Positions 16,506-35,668 of a stretch of DNA of 38,261 nt are shown here, one piece after another (the first letter of the stretch is position 1; each line of letters begins with the position of its first letter). The notes below the pieces were generated by a model that was not told the DNA's origin, searched no databases, and saw only the letters and a program-made list of their open reading frames with translations. Location of the stretch: the IMG/VR virus record IMGVR_UViG_3300046723_000423, positions 1 to 38,261 of that record; one strand, 5' to 3'. This stretch comes from a virus. Both the position numbers and the translations under genes were made by a program.

Positions 16506-18046
16506 TGGCCGTCAAGCCAGAGATCTCGGTCGATAACTTCGGCGGGCTGCAGCTCAGCGTTCCTCCCGCGCTGGTCGGCGAGGCCGACGCGACCGACCTG
16601 CTCGACGTCGATTGGGACAACAACGGTGTGCTCGGTTCGAGGATGGGCGTCGAAGGGCTGACCACCGAAGCGCCGGCCACCGCCTACGACCGCATCTTTG
16701 GCCACGGGGTTGACTTCGTGCCGCTGGGCGAGGTCTTCTCGGTGCTCGCCCGCCGCGGCAAAGTCCTGGCCTGGATCAACTCGGCCGGCAAAGAGGGTGC
16801 CGGCACGATCGCCGTCAACGAAGGTCGGCTCAGCTTCGCGAAGATCAGCTCGAGCGTCCTGGTCCCGGTCACCTACATCGCCAACCAGGAAGAAAAGGTG
16901 CGCAAATTCTTCGAAGGCGCCTTCTCCTCACCGACCGCCACGGTGGACGGCGTCGCCGGCAAAGATATGCCGCGGGCGAACTTCCTCGCCACCTGGCAGG
17001 ACGGCGCCAACCGGCTCGTCTACGCGAACACGACGCTGACCGGCGGCCCCAATGGCGCGGCCGGATCCCCGTCGCACGTCTTCTTCTCCGAACCCGGCCA
17101 GCCGGAGAAATTCGAATCGACCGCCTTCGTGGAGCTCAACCCCGGCGACGGCGAGCAGATCCTCGGGATCTGTTCCTACGGGCGCAACATCTTCGTCTTC
17201 AAGGAAACCTGCTGCTTCGTCTTCTACGGCATCTCTGAAGACGCTGAAGGCCGGCCGATCTTCAACTTCAAAACGATCGACCTGGGGACGCAGGTGCTCG
17301 CCTTCTTCGCCTCCGACTCCCAGCCGATCACGGTCGGCAAGGACGGCGTCTACTTCCTCGCCCAGGACGGGATCTGGGTGACGAACGGCGGCCCGCCGAT
17401 CCGGGTCACCGATCCGCTCGAACTGGGTGCCGATCGGCGCGACGCGAGAACCTCGCTCGGCGGCATGGCCTTTCCCACCTGGCCGCGGGCGAAAGGCTTC
17501 CTGCTGCAGATGGGCAACTGCCTCTTCGTCGGCTTCCCCGAAAAAGCAGGTGAAAGCCTGATTAAGCGGGTGCTGAAACTGGACCTGACCACGGGCCGCG
17601 CCACCTACTGGAAGACCGAACTGAACGGCGCGATGATCTGGTCGCCGACCTTCAACGGCGGTCCGTTCCTCTTCTTCTCCGGCGGCCCCGGTCACAAGGG
17701 TGTCTTCTTCTACAACCCCGCCACCAACCTCGACCCCGTTGTCGAAATGGAACCGTTCTGGCAGTCGGGTGGGTATGACATCGGCAACCCCGACGAAAAG
17801 ACGCTGACCGAGCTGAAGCTCTGGGGCACGGGCAACGTGGACGTGGCGATCGGCGAGGACTTCAAGGCGGTCGGCAAAGCCAAGACCTTCAAACTCGGCG
17901 CCGCTCCCGCCATCGCCCAGCAGCAAAAGCAGCTCGGTCAGACGGCCACGGTGCTCAGCCACAAGCTCTCCGGTAAAGCGCCCTGGTCGGTGCAGCGGCT
18001 CACTCGCTACGTCAGAGAGGACCGCGTCCCGGGGACCGAGAAGTGA
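16505..18046 (+). CDS. Beta-propeller tail hub/nozzle-like protein, 513 aa
   Basis: It starts in TGATG with the connector. The sequence is a chain of beta blades with recurring signatures of short-tail hub proteins (P22 gp10 / T7 gp12 type): SPSHVFFSEPGQPEKFEST, VELNPGDGEQILGICSYGRN, IFVFKETCCFVFYGISED, and GKDGVYFLAQDGIWVTNGGP. The 'SEPGxPExF ... GDGExIxGI ... vFK' series is typical. Such proteins form the tail tube or its tip, below the portal and connector, and keep packaged DNA in place. Together with the absence of tail-tube and tape-measure genes, it is the main support for a short-tailed virion. Confidence 0.75.
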   Translation: MAVKPEISVDNFGGLQLSVPPALVGEADATDLLDVDWDNNGVLGSRMGVEGLTTEAPATAYDRIFGHGVDFVPLGEVFSVLARRGKVLAWINSAGKEGAGTIAVNEGRLSFAKISSSVLVPVTYIANQEEKVRKFFEGAFSSPTATVDGVAGKDMPRANFLATWQDGANRLVYANTTLTGGPNGAAGSPSHVFFSEPGQPEKFESTAFVELNPGDGEQILGICSYGRNIFVFKETCCFVFYGISEDAEGRPIFNFKTIDLGTQVLAFFASDSQPITVGKDGVYFLAQDGIWVTNGGPPIRVTDPLELGADRRDARTSLGGMAFPTWPRAKGFLLQMGNCLFVGFPEKAGESLIKRVLKLDLTTGRATYWKTELNGAMIWSPTFNGGPFLFFSGGPGHKGVFFYNPATNLDPVVEMEPFWQSGGYDIGNPDEKTLTELKLWGTGNVDVAIGEDFKAVGKAKTFKLGAAPAIAQQQKQLGQTATVLSHKLSGKAPWSVQRLTRYVREDRVPGTEK

Positions 18047-20511
18047 CCAAACCGCTTCCCGCCCGTGACGTCGAGGCTCGTGTTGGTCGCTCGGGCCCTC
18101 CGCACCTGACCGCGGTCGAGCGGAAGAGTCTTGCCGGCGTCGAGGACGAAGGGCTGCGCAAGCTGCTCGGCGAGCTGATCCGCCAGTCGGCGGGCAATCA
18201 GGAAAACTTCGAGACGCTCGAGCAGTGGTTCCCGATCCAACCCGCCGACATCGCCAAAGCCGACGCGGACGCGGAGTGGTTGCACTACGAAAACCGCACC
18301 GCCAGCTCGGCGCCCGAACATCATCCCGGCACCTTCTTCCTGCAGACGGAACCGTTTGGGCAGGTCAGCATCGCCACCCACGATCTCGAGGGCCTCGATC
18401 TCACCGCCTTCCTCGAAAGCTGGGACGACTCGACCACCACCGCCGACCGCGGCTACCTGCTCGTCCGTCAGCCCCAGGTGGACCCGTCCTCGCTGTGGAT
18501 CCTCCGGATCACCGGGGCGGCCGTCCTCAAAGAAGGCAGCGAATTCGAACCGCCGGTCGAAAAATTCTTCAAAATCCCGGTCACGCCGGTAGTCCTTCAC
18601 GGCAACTTCGGTGGGGGCTCCGAAGAAGGCGTCGAGCGCAACGGGATCGAAATCCTCTTCGTCCGCTCGGGTGACAAGGGCGCGGAAGGTGCTGAAGGCG
18701 CCAAAGGCGAAAAAGGCGCGACCGGAGCCAAAGGGGAAAAAGGCGAAACGGGGGCCAAAGGGGAAAAAGGTGAAGCCGGCGCTGCAGGGGCGACGGGTGC
18801 CGAAGGCCGTAGCGCCGGGGTCAAGTACACCTACCTGACCAACACCGAATCCTCTGACCCGGGTGCCGGCAAGTTCAAGCTGAACAAAACGACGCTCTCG
18901 GAAGCCACGGTCTTCCGGATCTCCGAGACGGACGGCGATGCCAACGCCCTGGCGGCCTACCTGGCGACGATTGACGATTCGACCTCCACGATCAAGGGCA
19001 CGCTCGTCATTCGCAAAATCGGAGCGCCCACCGTCTTCGCGATATTCCAGACGTCGGGGATCCTCAACGACAACGGCACCTGGGACAGCTTCACTGTCGC
19101 TCACGTCGCCAGCAACGGGCTGGCCAACAACGACGTCTGCACGATCGAATTCTTCCGCACCGGAGATCTTGGTGCGACAGGGGCGACGGGCGAAAAAGGT
19201 GCCACCGGAGAAAAAGGTGCGACAGGGGAAAAAGGCGCCACGGGTGAAAAAGGTGCTGAAGGCGCCAAAGGCGAAAAAGGCGCCGAAGGTGCTGCGGGTG
19301 CTGCAGGGGCGACGGGGCGAGCGGGTGCGCTGCACTACAAATGGCTGACCAATACGGAAGCCACTGAACCTGCGGCGGGGAGGATCAAGACCACCGCCGG
19401 CAAGACGCTTACGCGGATCTCCGAGACCGACCTCGACGGCAATGGGATCGCGGCGCTGATCGCCACCTGGGATGACTCGACCACGACCAAACGCGGCTAC
19501 CTGACCGTCCGCCAGGTCTCCAACCCGAAAAAGTTCATCGTCTTCGCAATTACCGGAGCCAACGTCGATGAAGGCGCGTTCGACAAGCTGACGACGGAAG
19601 CGATCTCCGAAGGCGAAGCGATCGAAAACGAAGCTGAAGTGATGGTCGAATTCAGCCGCACCGGGGACCTCGGGGCGACCGGCGCAAAAGGTGAAACGGG
19701 TGAACCCGGCCCTCACAAACTTCCCCAGGGCGTCTCCGTCGAATGGGAAGAAACTGAAGGCGGCACCTTCCCGGAGAAGGTTGTCGGTACCAGGGAAGGG
19801 ATCTTTCGGAAGCTACAGGCGATCGTCAACGGGTTCTCGACCAACGCGGCGCTCGTAATCGAATCGTCGGCGACCACCGCCGTCGCCAGGCTGAAGGCCG
19901 TCGTCGGTGCGCTCGAACGGACGATCCTCGACAACGAAGGCAAGTCGGAATTCCTCCAACTGAGCTCGCTGCGCAAAGAGCGTGACTCCGGGATCGTCAG
20001 CGCTCTGCCCGGCACACCCGTCGTCGGCGATCGTTGTTTCTTCCAGGCCGACAAAACCAACGGGGTGATCTGGGAGCTGGTCTACGACGGTGAAGGCGAA
20101 TTTCCCTGGAAGAAGGTGGGCGGCCCTCCGATGGAGGCTCAGTCCAACGAAACACGAGAACTCACCAACGAAACCGCCTACAAATCCCTGCCCACTGATC
20201 CGCTCAAAGTCACGGTGCCGCTGAAAGGTGACTACGACATCTCGATCGAGGCGGCCCAGGTTTTGCCGGCCACCATCAACTCTCAGGGGCTGCTTTCTTA
20301 CGCGATCGGGGCGACGGCCGCCAGCGACAACTGGTCCGCGACGGCCAACAACAACGCCGCCAACGGGTTCGGTGCCGACATCATCAAAAAGACGCGGCAG
20401 CTCGGCGTCGCCAAATCGGCGGAAGTGATCGAGAAAGGGCGCACAGTCGGCAACTACACCGTCAAATGGGCGCGACGTCGTCTGTACGTCGATCCGGTCC
20501 GGGTCGGCTAG
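18043..20511 (+). CDS. Modular collagen-like tail fibre, 822 aa
   Basis: It starts with GTG in GTGA. After a helical base (residues 1-75) come three diverged copies of a domain of about 110-130 residues (79-209, 261-373, 431-540), sharing 'ISETD...LxAxxATxDDSTxTxxGxLxxR', and each followed by Gly-X-Y runs (210-258, 374-428, 541-557). The Gly-X-Y runs (GEKGATGEKGATGEKG and similar) should form a collagen triple helix, so the fibre is a trimer of knob domains on collagen stalks. The C-terminal 260 residues are beta-rich and probably hold the receptor-binding tip (FQADKTNGVIWELVYDGEGE, then YTVKWARRRLYVDPVRVG). Confidence 0.8.
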   Translation: MTKPLPARDVEARVGRSGPPHLTAVERKSLAGVEDEGLRKLLGELIRQSAGNQENFETLEQWFPIQPADIAKADADAEWLHYENRTASSAPEHHPGTFFLQTEPFGQVSIATHDLEGLDLTAFLESWDDSTTTADRGYLLVRQPQVDPSSLWILRITGAAVLKEGSEFEPPVEKFFKIPVTPVVLHGNFGGGSEEGVERNGIEILFVRSGDKGAEGAEGAKGEKGATGAKGEKGETGAKGEKGEAGAAGATGAEGRSAGVKYTYLTNTESSDPGAGKFKLNKTTLSEATVFRISETDGDANALAAYLATIDDSTSTIKGTLVIRKIGAPTVFAIFQTSGILNDNGTWDSFTVAHVASNGLANNDVCTIEFFRTGDLGATGATGEKGATGEKGATGEKGATGEKGAEGAKGEKGAEGAAGAAGATGRAGALHYKWLTNTEATEPAAGRIKTTAGKTLTRISETDLDGNGIAALIATWDDSTTTKRGYLTVRQVSNPKKFIVFAITGANVDEGAFDKLTTEAISEGEAIENEAEVMVEFSRTGDLGATGAKGETGEPGPHKLPQGVSVEWEETEGGTFPEKVVGTREGIFRKLQAIVNGFSTNAALVIESSATTAVARLKAVVGALERTILDNEGKSEFLQLSSLRKERDSGIVSALPGTPVVGDRCFFQADKTNGVIWELVYDGEGEFPWKKVGGPPMEAQSNETRELTNETAYKSLPTDPLKVTVPLKGDYDISIEAAQVLPATINSQGLLSYAIGATAASDNWSATANNNAANGFGADIIKKTRQLGVAKSAEVIEKGRTVGNYTVKWARRRLYVDPVRVG
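18670..19326 (+). repeat. Two collagen-like repeat tracts in the fibre gene
   Basis: Near-identical 9- and 18-bp units built on GAAAAAGGTGC/GCGAC code for Gly-Glu-Lys and Gly-Ala-Thr triplets at 18670-18816 and 19162-19326. A third short run lies at 19663-19713. Such runs can expand or contract by slippage or recombination and so change stalk length. Confidence 0.8.
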
Positions 20512-31502: not shown

Positions 31503-31528
31503 AGTGTGGGCACACTTTGCGGTAGGGT
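31503..31528 (+). promoter_or_regulatory. Palindromic operator and TAGGGT promoter of the integrase
   Basis: AGTGTGGGCACACT (31503-31516) lies between the divergent starts of the regulator (31456) and integrase (31578). TAGGGT at 31523-31528 is the likely -10 box, so the operator would cover the spacer and block RNA polymerase. The exact reverse complement is found at 1890-1903. A short stem (GGCCG/CGGCC at 31542-31559) follows. Confidence 0.55.
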
Positions 31529-31577
31529 GTCGCCAACGTCGGGCCGAGGGGGTCCGGCCTTCCGAAGGAGAATCCAT

Positions 31578-32165
31578 ATGCCGAACGAGCTGACCACTCC
31601 CTGGGCCGACCGCGATGAATTGCGAAAGCTGCTCGCGATCGCCCAGAAGACCAGCCCCCGCGACTTCCTGCTGATCGCCCTCCTGGGCCTCAACGGGCTA
31701 CGGGCCTCAGAGGCGATAGGGGCCGCTGTACCGGACCTGGGGGCCTCTGGCGGCCACCGCACCCTCAGGGTGACCCGCAAGGGCTCCAAGGCCGGTGTCG
31801 TCCCCCTGGCGCCCCCTGTGGGCCTCGCTGTGGACGACTTCCTCGGGGGGCGCCCGTCCGGGCCGCTCCTGGCACGGCTAAACCGGGCAGGTGAGGTCGC
31901 GGAGCCGCTGCTCGGGATCTCGCGGCAGGCCGTCTATGACCGCGTCCAGAAGCTCGCTCGGGAAGCCGGCGTCAACCCGGCGCTCTCACCGCACTCGTTG
32001 CGGCGCAGCTTCGTGACGATCTCCCTGCAGAACGGTGTGCCGCTGCATCAGGTGCAGCTCGCGGTCGGCCACTCCTCGCCGACGACGACGATGATCTACA
32101 ACCGCGACGCCGGCAACCTCGAGGACAACCCGACCTTCGAGCTCGCCGAGGGTCTGCTCTCGTGA
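31578..32165 (+). CDS. int: Tyrosine recombinase (integrase), catalytic domain only, 195 aa
   Basis: All catalytic residues of the family are visible: Arg42 in GLRASEA, Lys68 in RKGSK, His139/Arg142 in HSLRR, His165 in GHSS and the nucleophile Tyr174 in TMIYNRD. The protein forms a 3'-phosphotyrosyl link with DNA and performs site-specific recombination. The start is fixed by GAAGGAGAATCC before the ATG. Normal phage integrases are 300-400 residues with an N-terminal arm-binding and SAM-like core-binding domain; here both are missing. It may need a partner protein or bind a very short site. Its stop overlaps the next start in GTGA. Confidence 0.85.
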   Translation: MPNELTTPWADRDELRKLLAIAQKTSPRDFLLIALLGLNGLRASEAIGAAVPDLGASGGHRTLRVTRKGSKAGVVPLAPPVGLAVDDFLGGRPSGPLLARLNRAGEVAEPLLGISRQAVYDRVQKLAREAGVNPALSPHSLRRSFVTISLQNGVPLHQVQLAVGHSSPTTTMIYNRDAGNLEDNPTFELAEGLLS

Positions 32166-33319: not shown

Positions 33320-33492
33320 GTAAGCCTCTCGAAGTCGAGCTCCTCGTTTGCCCAGAGCCCGGTTGCCGGCACATCGGCAAAGTCCCGATGAAGGGAGCGG
33401 CGAGCCAGATGAAGGGCTATTGCCGCGGGTCGATGCATGACAACCACCCGAAACGCCGGATGGAGCAGGTCCGTTTCGTGGAGGCTGAGTGA
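33316..33492 (+). CDS. Small zinc-finger-like protein, 58 aa
   Basis: It starts in GTGA. LLVCPEPGCRHIGKVPMKGA followed by GYCRGSMHDNHPKRRMEQVR has three Cys and three His in an arrangement like small phage zinc fingers (C-x4-C...C...H). It probably binds one metal ion. Such proteins are common beside actinophage replication genes and their role is unknown. It is coupled to the initiator gene by GTGA. Confidence 0.6.
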   Translation: MSKPLEVELLVCPEPGCRHIGKVPMKGAASQMKGYCRGSMHDNHPKRRMEQVRFVEAE

Positions 33493-34298
33493 GTCTCGCT
33501 GACCAGCGAAGGGCTCCCTTCGTTTGGACGACGATCGCGGCGATCAAGGCGATCCGTGAGGGAGTCACCGCCAGCGATCCCAGCCTGAGCAGTCTGCGCT
33601 CGGTCTACGACGCTCTGATCGAGGTCGCCAACGAGCAGCGCTCTCGGCCTGAGATCGCCACCGACAGCGACAGCTTCACGGCGACGAGGGAGCGGGTTGC
33701 CTCCTACTCAGGCACGTCAACCAAGACCGTTTCGCGGGGCCTCAAAACCCTCGAGCGAGTCGGCGTTCTTCGGGTCGAGCGACGTGAAGAAAAGCAGCTC
33801 CCGAGCCTCTATGTGTTGATCGAGCCCGGGACACAGAGTCCCACCCCCGGGTCACAGAGTCCAGGGGACCCCGGGTCACAGAGTCCCACAACTACTCAAG
33901 AAGAAAAAGATAAAGCCAAGAAGAAGGCGCCTGTCAAAACGGTCAATTCCAAGCCTGTTTCGGAGGAGGAGTTGATCCTCGCTGCTGCTGTTGTTGAATC
34001 TTTCAACGAGGTCTTTGGGACCGCGCTCACCGTCGATCCGCACCTGACCCCGATCGTCGGTCGGATCCGCGAGAAGCCAAAGCTCAATGCCGAGCATCAT
34101 CGGATGGTGATCGAGGCGGTCTCCAACGGCGAGCATTGGTGGAATGGGGCGCCGACGCCGCGGATCATCTACGGCAATGCCGCGCAGTTCGAGGCGTCGA
34201 TCGAGTTGGCTCGAGCCGAGGCCAAGAAACCCAAGCGCTACGACGTCAACGCCGAAGCCGACCGGATGAAACGCGAGCAAGAAGAAGGGCGCGACTAG
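33489..34298 (+). CDS. Replication initiator-like protein with winged helix, 269 aa
   Basis: It starts with GTG in GTGA. The N-terminal domain (about 10-112) is a winged helix: RSVYDALIEVANEQRSR, then RVASYSGTSTKTVSRGLKTL and a wing (LRVERREEKQLPSLYVLIE). A flexible linker with three PG(T/S)QSP repeats follows (113-135), then a basic helix. The C-terminal domain (about 150-245; ESFNEVFGTALTVDPHLTPI, then EAVSNGEHWWNGAPTPRIIY) fits the conserved C-terminal domain of phage replication initiators of the O/DnaD-like group. Next to it lies the helicase gene, and its own linker DNA holds the iterons, so it is the likely origin-binding protein. Confidence 0.75.
   Translation: MSLADQRRAPFVWTTIAAIKAIREGVTASDPSLSSLRSVYDALIEVANEQRSRPEIATDSDSFTATRERVASYSGTSTKTVSRGLKTLERVGVLRVERREEKQLPSLYVLIEPGTQSPTPGSQSPGDPGSQSPTTTQEEKDKAKKKAPVKTVNSKPVSEEELILAAAVVESFNEVFGTALTVDPHLTPIVGRIREKPKLNAEHHRMVIEAVSNGEHWWNGAPTPRIIYGNAAQFEASIELARAEAKKPKRYDVNAEADRMKREQEEGRD
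33825..33886 (+). repeat. Three 17-bp iterons, likely replication origin
   Basis: CCCGGG(A/T)CACAGAGTCC occurs at 33825, 33846 and 33870, spaced 21 and 24 bp (two helical turns), with one base difference. It is followed at about 33889-33930 by the A-rich stretch CAACTACTCAAGAAGAAAAA, rare in this GC-rich genome and a good unwinding element. Iterons plus an A-rich element inside an initiator gene match the lambda ori arrangement in the O gene. Confidence 0.65.
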
Positions 34299-35668
34299 TG
34301 GGCTCGGTGACGATGCCGGGGCAGGACGACGCCCCGCCGACCAATATCGAGATGGAGGAATCGGTGCTCGGGGCGATGCTCGTCAACGAGCGGGCGCTGA
34401 AGCAGGTGCGGGTGGACTCGGGCCTGACCTCCAAGCACTTCTACCTCGATCGTCACCGCGAGATCTTCGCCACCATCTGCAGGGTCGCCGTCCGCAGTGG
34501 CGCCGTGGACTCGCTGCTGGTCAGCAACGAGATCCCCGCGCACAAGGACGTGATCGCCGACCTGGTCGCCAAGGTGCCGGCGCCGGGGAACGCGATGCAC
34601 TACGCCCGGATCGTTTTGATAAACGCCCAGCTGCGGGCCAAGCTCGAGGGTGCGCAGCTGATCGTGCGGGGCGTGCGTGAGCGGGCCGACGAGGAGCGCT
34701 CGGCCGAGCTCGTTCGGGAGGGCCTGCAGCTCGCCGCCTCCGACTACACGATCGAGGCTGAACCGACGTCGGGTGAGGCGATTCTTGACGAGCTGTTCAA
34801 CCACTTCGATCGCGACGAGGAGGGTGAGGTCTTCGAGCTGCCCTGGGCGATCCTCAACGAGTCGGTGCTTGGCGGCTACCGGCGCAAGCAGATGTCGGTG
34901 ATCGCCGGCTGGACCGGCATGGGCAAGAGCTGGTTGCTGGACGACATCATGGCCGCCTTCGACTCCCAGGGCTACAAGGCGGCGATCTTCGCGACCGAGA
35001 TGTCACGCGAGGAGAGAGCGGCCAGGTGGCTGACTTCGCAGACCGGGGTGTCGCTCGAAAAGATCCTCCGCAACCGCCTCGACGCCGACGACCATCGCAA
35101 GTTGGCGAAGGCTCGAGCCGAGGCCGATGGCCGACTGCCCTTCGACTACTTCGAGGCGTTCGAATGGAGCGCCGACAAGATCTGCGAGCGGATCATCTTC
35201 GGCGATTACGACGTCGTCGCGATCGACCCGGTCACCGAGATCCCCGGCTTCGAAGAAACGGAAACCGCGTCGAAGATCTCCCGTCGACTCGCGACGGTCG
35301 CCGGCCGCGCCGACTGCCATGTGATCGCCGTCTCGCACCTGAATCGCAACCGACTGAAGGATCCCAAAGGGGTGAAGCCGCGGCCGGTGCTCGCCGACCT
35401 GAAGGGCTCGGGTGCCCTCGAAACCAACGCCCACGCCGTCCTCTTCCTGCACCGTAAGCAGGACGCTGAGGCGCACATCTTGCCCGAGGGCGAGCTGTTC
35501 TACGCGAAGGTCAGGAACGGGGTGCCGAAGGAGATCAACGTGGTCCAGTCGAGTCGGACTCACCGTTTCCTAGCCCTGGCGCCGGACCCGGTGCATGTGC
35601 AGGAGACGATCAAAATGGACACGCCGCCGCCCCATGACAGCACCGAGGGTCGGGTGTTCCCGTTTTGA
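34298..35668 (+). CDS. dnaB: DnaB-type replicative helicase, 456 aa
   Basis: The GTG at 34298 overlaps the previous TAG (TAGTG). The N-terminal helical domain (about 16-115) opens NIEMEESVLGAMLVNERALK, the usual DnaB beginning. The RecA-like C-terminal domain carries Walker A GWTGMGKSW (about 204-212), Walker B VVAID (306-310) and HVIAVSHLNR (341-350). As a hexamer it unwinds DNA ahead of the fork using ATP. No separate loader gene is seen, so the initiator may load it, or the host may supply one. The length is normal. A TTGA overlap joins it to the next gene. Confidence 0.92.
   Translation: MGSVTMPGQDDAPPTNIEMEESVLGAMLVNERALKQVRVDSGLTSKHFYLDRHREIFATICRVAVRSGAVDSLLVSNEIPAHKDVIADLVAKVPAPGNAMHYARIVLINAQLRAKLEGAQLIVRGVRERADEERSAELVREGLQLAASDYTIEAEPTSGEAILDELFNHFDRDEEGEVFELPWAILNESVLGGYRRKQMSVIAGWTGMGKSWLLDDIMAAFDSQGYKAAIFATEMSREERAARWLTSQTGVSLEKILRNRLDADDHRKLAKARAEADGRLPFDYFEAFEWSADKICERIIFGDYDVVAIDPVTEIPGFEETETASKISRRLATVAGRADCHVIAVSHLNRNRLKDPKGVKPRPVLADLKGSGALETNAHAVLFLHRKQDAEAHILPEGELFYAKVRNGVPKEINVVQSSRTHRFLALAPDPVHVQETIKMDTPPPHDSTEGRVFPF

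Follow-up and report, generated by a model that had tools for sequence, protein, structure and literature searches.

A probable replication origin of lambda O type inside the initiator gene of an uncultivated temperate phage

The initiator gene and its surroundings

The window analysed here is the whole of a virus contig (IMG/VR IMGVR_UViG_3300046723_000423; 38,261 bp, mean GC 65%). Because profile matches reveal genes for a terminase, a portal, an endolysin and an integrase, the source of the record is probably a tailed temperate phage and, since an integrase is present, the prophage probably integrates. The integrase gene (31506-32165) codes for only 219 aa, the C-terminal catalytic part: the gene may be short, or it may begin further upstream. 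A large ORF (18043-20511), the product of which is probably a tail or fibre protein, carries collagen-like G-x-x tandem repeats at 18686-19300, made of AAGGCGCC-type units.

The gene of interest (33489..34298, plus strand) encodes a 269-aa protein composed of N-terminal helices, a winged helix-turn-helix (about aa 60-100), a linker (about aa 112-150) and a C-terminal domain. The initial annotation had described it as a winged-helix initiator-like gene, and the profile searches concur: Pfam HTH_Crp_2 matches aa 60-99 (E 3.5e-6) and the PHROG replication-initiation families 428, 678 and 270 match with E about 1e-6, family 678 ('replication initiation O-like') doing so over aa 64-154 with an E of 1.1e-6 and a modest score. 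The lambda O family of Pfam does not match, the scan to E 0.1 giving only HTH_Crp_2 and a weak TrmB. HTH_36 (PF13730) matches neither the window initiator nor L004, whereas all seven sampled relatives do match. A PDB sequence search with the initiator gave no match, and no relatives were returned by tblastn of the window protein against annotated phages or by a profile search of genome contigs. The AlphaFold model of the initiator (3 sequences; mean pLDDT 45, above 70 only near residues 70-80) served solely to place the recognition helix; this low-confidence model, aligned with the HTH of the family, puts it at aa 78-90 (TKTVSRGLKTLER; 33720..33758, plus strand). The next gene downstream (34319..35668, plus strand) encodes a DnaB-type replicative helicase (Pfam DnaB_C, 1.1e-30, and DnaB N, 2.9e-17; PHROG 19, 3.3e-62).

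The iteron array and the A-rich DNA beside it

Three copies of CCCGGG(A/T)CACAGAGTCC are found in the linker at 21- and 24-bp spacing, as initially annotated, starting at 33825, 33846 and 33870. Iteron 1, CCCGGGACACAGAGTCC (33825..33841, plus strand), holds together with the next C a perfect 15-bp dyad of the form GGGAC-N5-GTCCC, namely GGGAC-ACAGA-GTCCC (33828-33842). Iterons 2 and 3 are both CCCGGGTCACAGAGTCC (33846..33862 and 33870..33886, plus strand), and their dyads depart from the perfect half-site by two mismatches (33849-33863) and by one (33873-33887), respectively. When up to 3 mismatches are allowed, the record contains three matches to the repeat unit against 0.33 expected, a number reached by 0 of 100 shuffles; no further copy exists elsewhere in the 38,261 bp. 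The codons of the units (CCC GGG ACA CAG AGT CCC, CCC GGG TCA CAG AGT CCA and CCC GGG TCA CAG AGT CCC) are identical save for one first position and one wobble, as had been claimed, and the core word is read in the first of them as PGTQSP.

The A-rich DNA reported after the repeats is confirmed and was understated. The putative unwinding element (33886..33960, plus strand) has a GC content of 0.43, its first 41 bp (33886-33926) being 37% GC and 56% A, and at the 30-, 40-, 60- and 80-bp scales no other part of the record is as low in GC as this DNA adjoining the array. The GC-skew check proposed in the initial annotation was not informative: the cumulative skew shows no more than a shallow minimum near 32 kb, and most genes are co-directional, which confounds its use as a locator.

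In phage lambda, the O gene has the same design, with iterons and A-rich DNA inside the initiator gene. The array is very probably a lambda-O-type intragenic replication origin of the phage, built like oriLambda; the GC-skew switch aside, the computable predictions of this reading, which is drawn from the sequence, hold. An improbable alternative is that the array is an operator, through which the initiator represses its own gene or the helicase gene with no origin role. Self-binding by the winged helix would give an identical sequence picture, and autoregulation is common among plasmid initiators; however, the array sits about 335 bp into the gene and not at a promoter, the DNA that directly follows it is the most AT-rich of the genome, a feature for which an operator has no use, and the coupling of an array to lower-GC DNA recurs across the family described below.

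It could also be that the repeats are those of a low-complexity Pro-Gly-Ser linker born from a recent in-frame duplication, their DNA identity reflecting nothing but youth. The three window copies do share one reading frame, and peptide repeats alone yield in-frame DNA repeats. For the same reason, since all copies are in one frame, a test for repeats in other frames is silent in the window (2 out-of-frame repeats versus 1.9 expected, not significant on this gene alone).

Conservation of the DNA in close and distant initiators

Two close relatives were found, with initiator proteins 92% and 78% identical to that of the window. A 64-bp block that takes in the second and third copies together with the beginning of the A-rich DNA (33844..33907, plus strand) is identical in the 78% relative. 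With the count restricted to codons whose amino acid is unchanged, synonymous changes in this relative affected 2 of 26 codons inside the array and the A-rich stretch versus 66 of 176 (38%) outside (Fisher p 0.0017); for the relative at 92% identity the figures were 0 of 27 codons in the array region versus 35 of 216 outside (p 0.018). The pattern named beforehand as refuting the intragenic origin, a PGSQSP peptide kept with scrambled codons, was not observed, the 78% relative keeping the 64 bases exactly.

A search at the DNA level only, for two CACAGAGTCC words, led to HTH initiator genes in unrelated phages. The core GGACACAGAGTCC recurs there in other reading frames, in initiators that are 19-26% identical to that of the window in the N-terminal domain: it is read as both PDTESP and PGHRVP within the single L025 gene and, likewise in two frames of one gene, as PDTES and PGHRV in L020, and it is present as its reverse complement in L016. 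Several other viral-contig matches, in simple-sequence proteins or intergenic repeats, were set aside, as was the sole match of the same search in genome contigs, an unrelated Ser-Asp repeat protein. L011, L022, L023 and L026 belong to one shared protein family without a recognised HTH and carry GGACTCTGTG repeats (SVRDSVWGSV peptides). The claim that the DNA itself is conserved, and not just the peptide, is thus borne out by synonymous conservation in the relatives and by the frame-shifted copies in other phages. Because the word is kept while the peptide changes across initiators, the DNA is, on these comparisons, the selected object; kept DNA with a changed peptide is direct evidence of it.

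To look at the wider family, 255 genes (O-like, primosomal protein I), nearly all of them gathered by protein profiles regardless of repeats, were reduced to 63 clusters; the exceptions are the window gene, L016, L025 and L020/L200, which were reached through the DNA word that they have in common. Compared with a protein-preserving null, in which synonymous codons are shuffled within each gene, 8-mer repeats in a different frame were 13-fold in excess (1722 observed versus 132 expected), with 49 of the 63 clusters significant, and they were mostly centred just past the winged helix. These repeats, together with the copies of the word in other frames of unrelated initiators, run against a recent duplication. 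So does the age of the window copies: they are older than a split that has left 38% synonymous change elsewhere in the gene, yet copies 2 and 3 are still identical. That explanation, to which we now give very little weight, is largely refuted.

The family repeats have a common geometry. A significant 5-5-5 dyad is present in 48 of the 63 clusters, commonly at 21-24 bp spacing (24, 21, 21 and 24 in SfV; 21 and 24 in Vibrio D67). An odd spacer between half-sites beats an even one in 45 clusters versus 11, with a mode of 5, and the DNA after the array has a GC content below that of the gene in 57 of the 63 clusters.

Two or more GAACC words follow the iterons in 45 of the 63 clusters, mostly 11-12 bp apart and, in 37, in more than one reading frame. 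These words are about twice as numerous as in the synonymous-shuffle null (148 versus 71), and 140 of the 213 in family genes fall within 7% of gene length. Of the 70 loci that a DNA-only search for the GAACC array listed clear of contig ends, 56 are initiators of this family, and many of the others are simple repeats. The element is absent from the window gene, and no published description of it was found in the open-access papers searched. In L028-L039 and L040-L359 it takes the form of an 11-12-bp phased GAACC(A/G)T(C/A)A array, in several frames, 0-100 bp after the iterons; in L025 its place after the iterons is taken by GAAGCTTCC(C/T)T, repeated in 12-bp phase around nt 460-510 of the gene. 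The phased GAACC array is a possible second origin element.

Recognition helix, mechanism and relation to known origins

The initial annotation had suggested comparing helix and iteron for co-variation. With half-sites crudely labelled by the presence of short words in the called repeats, an R two positions past the conserved V of the recognition helix goes with GAC half-sites: 10 of the 13 clusters with this R have them versus 7 of the 50 without (Fisher p 3e-5, raw counts). Without the four genes that are linked to the DNA word itself, the figures are 6 of 9 versus 7 of 50 (p 0.0022). The window follows the rule (TVSR, GGGAC), and a clean contrast is provided by Vibrio D67 (AMR, GTGAC) versus the 61%-identical SfV (VMN, GTGCA). 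Tree-aware pairing, which yields 6 pairs, too few for significance, gives 2.4 going the same way and 0.1 the opposite way. Co-variation is seen in the raw counts; the labels being crude and the informative pairs few, the correspondence between recognition helix and half-site is to be regarded as suggestive. In the SER(A/S)V clade (L217, L250, L031, L253, L278, L238, L249 and L273 versus L202, L214, L232 and related clusters), R after the V occurs with CGGCA half-sites; where that residue is Q or H, the half-site is CCGCA or GTGCA.

Iteron arrays also act as parS-type sites, and the window array might accordingly be a partition (centromere-like) or other structural site bound by a different protein. 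We hold this to be highly unlikely: the genes scanned on the record include neither ParA nor ParB, an integrase is present, the array lies in the initiator gene itself, and in raw counts the repeat type in the family tracks the recognition helix of the initiator.

For a lambda-O-type origin, the following scheme can be proposed, in which binding, bending, melting and helicase loading are all carried over by analogy from lambda (PMC7466680). The initiator, product of the very gene that houses the array, would bind the three dyad iterons as dimers through its N-terminal winged helix. Adjacent dimers, about two helical turns apart, would bend the DNA and melt the neighbouring A-rich stretch, after which the C-terminal half of the initiator would recruit the phage's own DnaB, the product of the adjacent downstream gene, to the separated strands.

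The lambda O/oriLambda system and those of the lambdoid relatives P27 and 933W (PMC7466680) have, like the window, mid-gene iterons that are imperfect inverted repeats, an AT-rich neighbour and a helicase function encoded next. In lambda itself the iteron, an imperfect inverted repeat, is 19 bp long, and iteron 1 of P27, known from a published primer, is CCCTC-AAAAC-GAGGG (PMC7466680), i.e. a 5-5-5 dyad with the geometry that is the family mode. The window differs by its iteron sequence, by having 3 copies versus 4-6, by a neighbour that is a DnaB helicase and not a P-type loader, and by the missing Pfam match to lambda O. Comparable in layout are the 'replication initiation O-like', 'primosomal protein I' and HTH_36 initiators of the temperate phages SfV, ST64B, RothD, PP9W2, JBD68, Bbif-1 and PMBT6, which also have an N-terminal winged helix, a linker array with dyads often at 21-24 bp, and AT-richer DNA after it; the window protein, however, is only about 17-26% identical to them in its N-terminal part, has HTH_Crp_2 where they have HTH_36, and its gene is without phased GAACC. 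The RepA-type initiators of the mycobacteriophages Miko and Rachaly, which are actinophages, are likewise HTH proteins, and the origin proposed for these phages lies either upstream of repA or within it (PMC7157519). Unlike the window phage, these are extrachromosomal prophages with parABS, and no repeats were identified in the region examined (PMC7157519).

The layout is thus already known from lambda; what is new is how widely it recurs, with repeats readable in any frame: dozens of phage genes that are distant relatives have it. The helix/half-site correspondence and the 11-12-bp phased GAACC element, both observed family-wide in the sequences compared, may be new features as well. A broader proposal, to which we give even chances, is that a single intragenic origin grammar is common to the winged-helix initiators of phages whose hosts are actinobacterial, proteobacterial or other: 5-5-5 dyad iterons in any frame at 21-24 bp, half-sites partly predictable from two helix residues (R at V+2 for GAC and, in one clade, R at V+1 for GG, Q or H for CG or TG), then in most cases an 11-12-bp phased GAACC array. 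If this is true, origins would be readable directly from the sequence of the initiator.

For this uncultivated high-GC temperate phage, the likely origin is placed within about 140 bp, with an exact candidate binding site. More generally, the DNA words kept across frames in the linkers of this large initiator family make the prediction of prophage origins straightforward, and the family offers a natural set for learning how winged helices read DNA.
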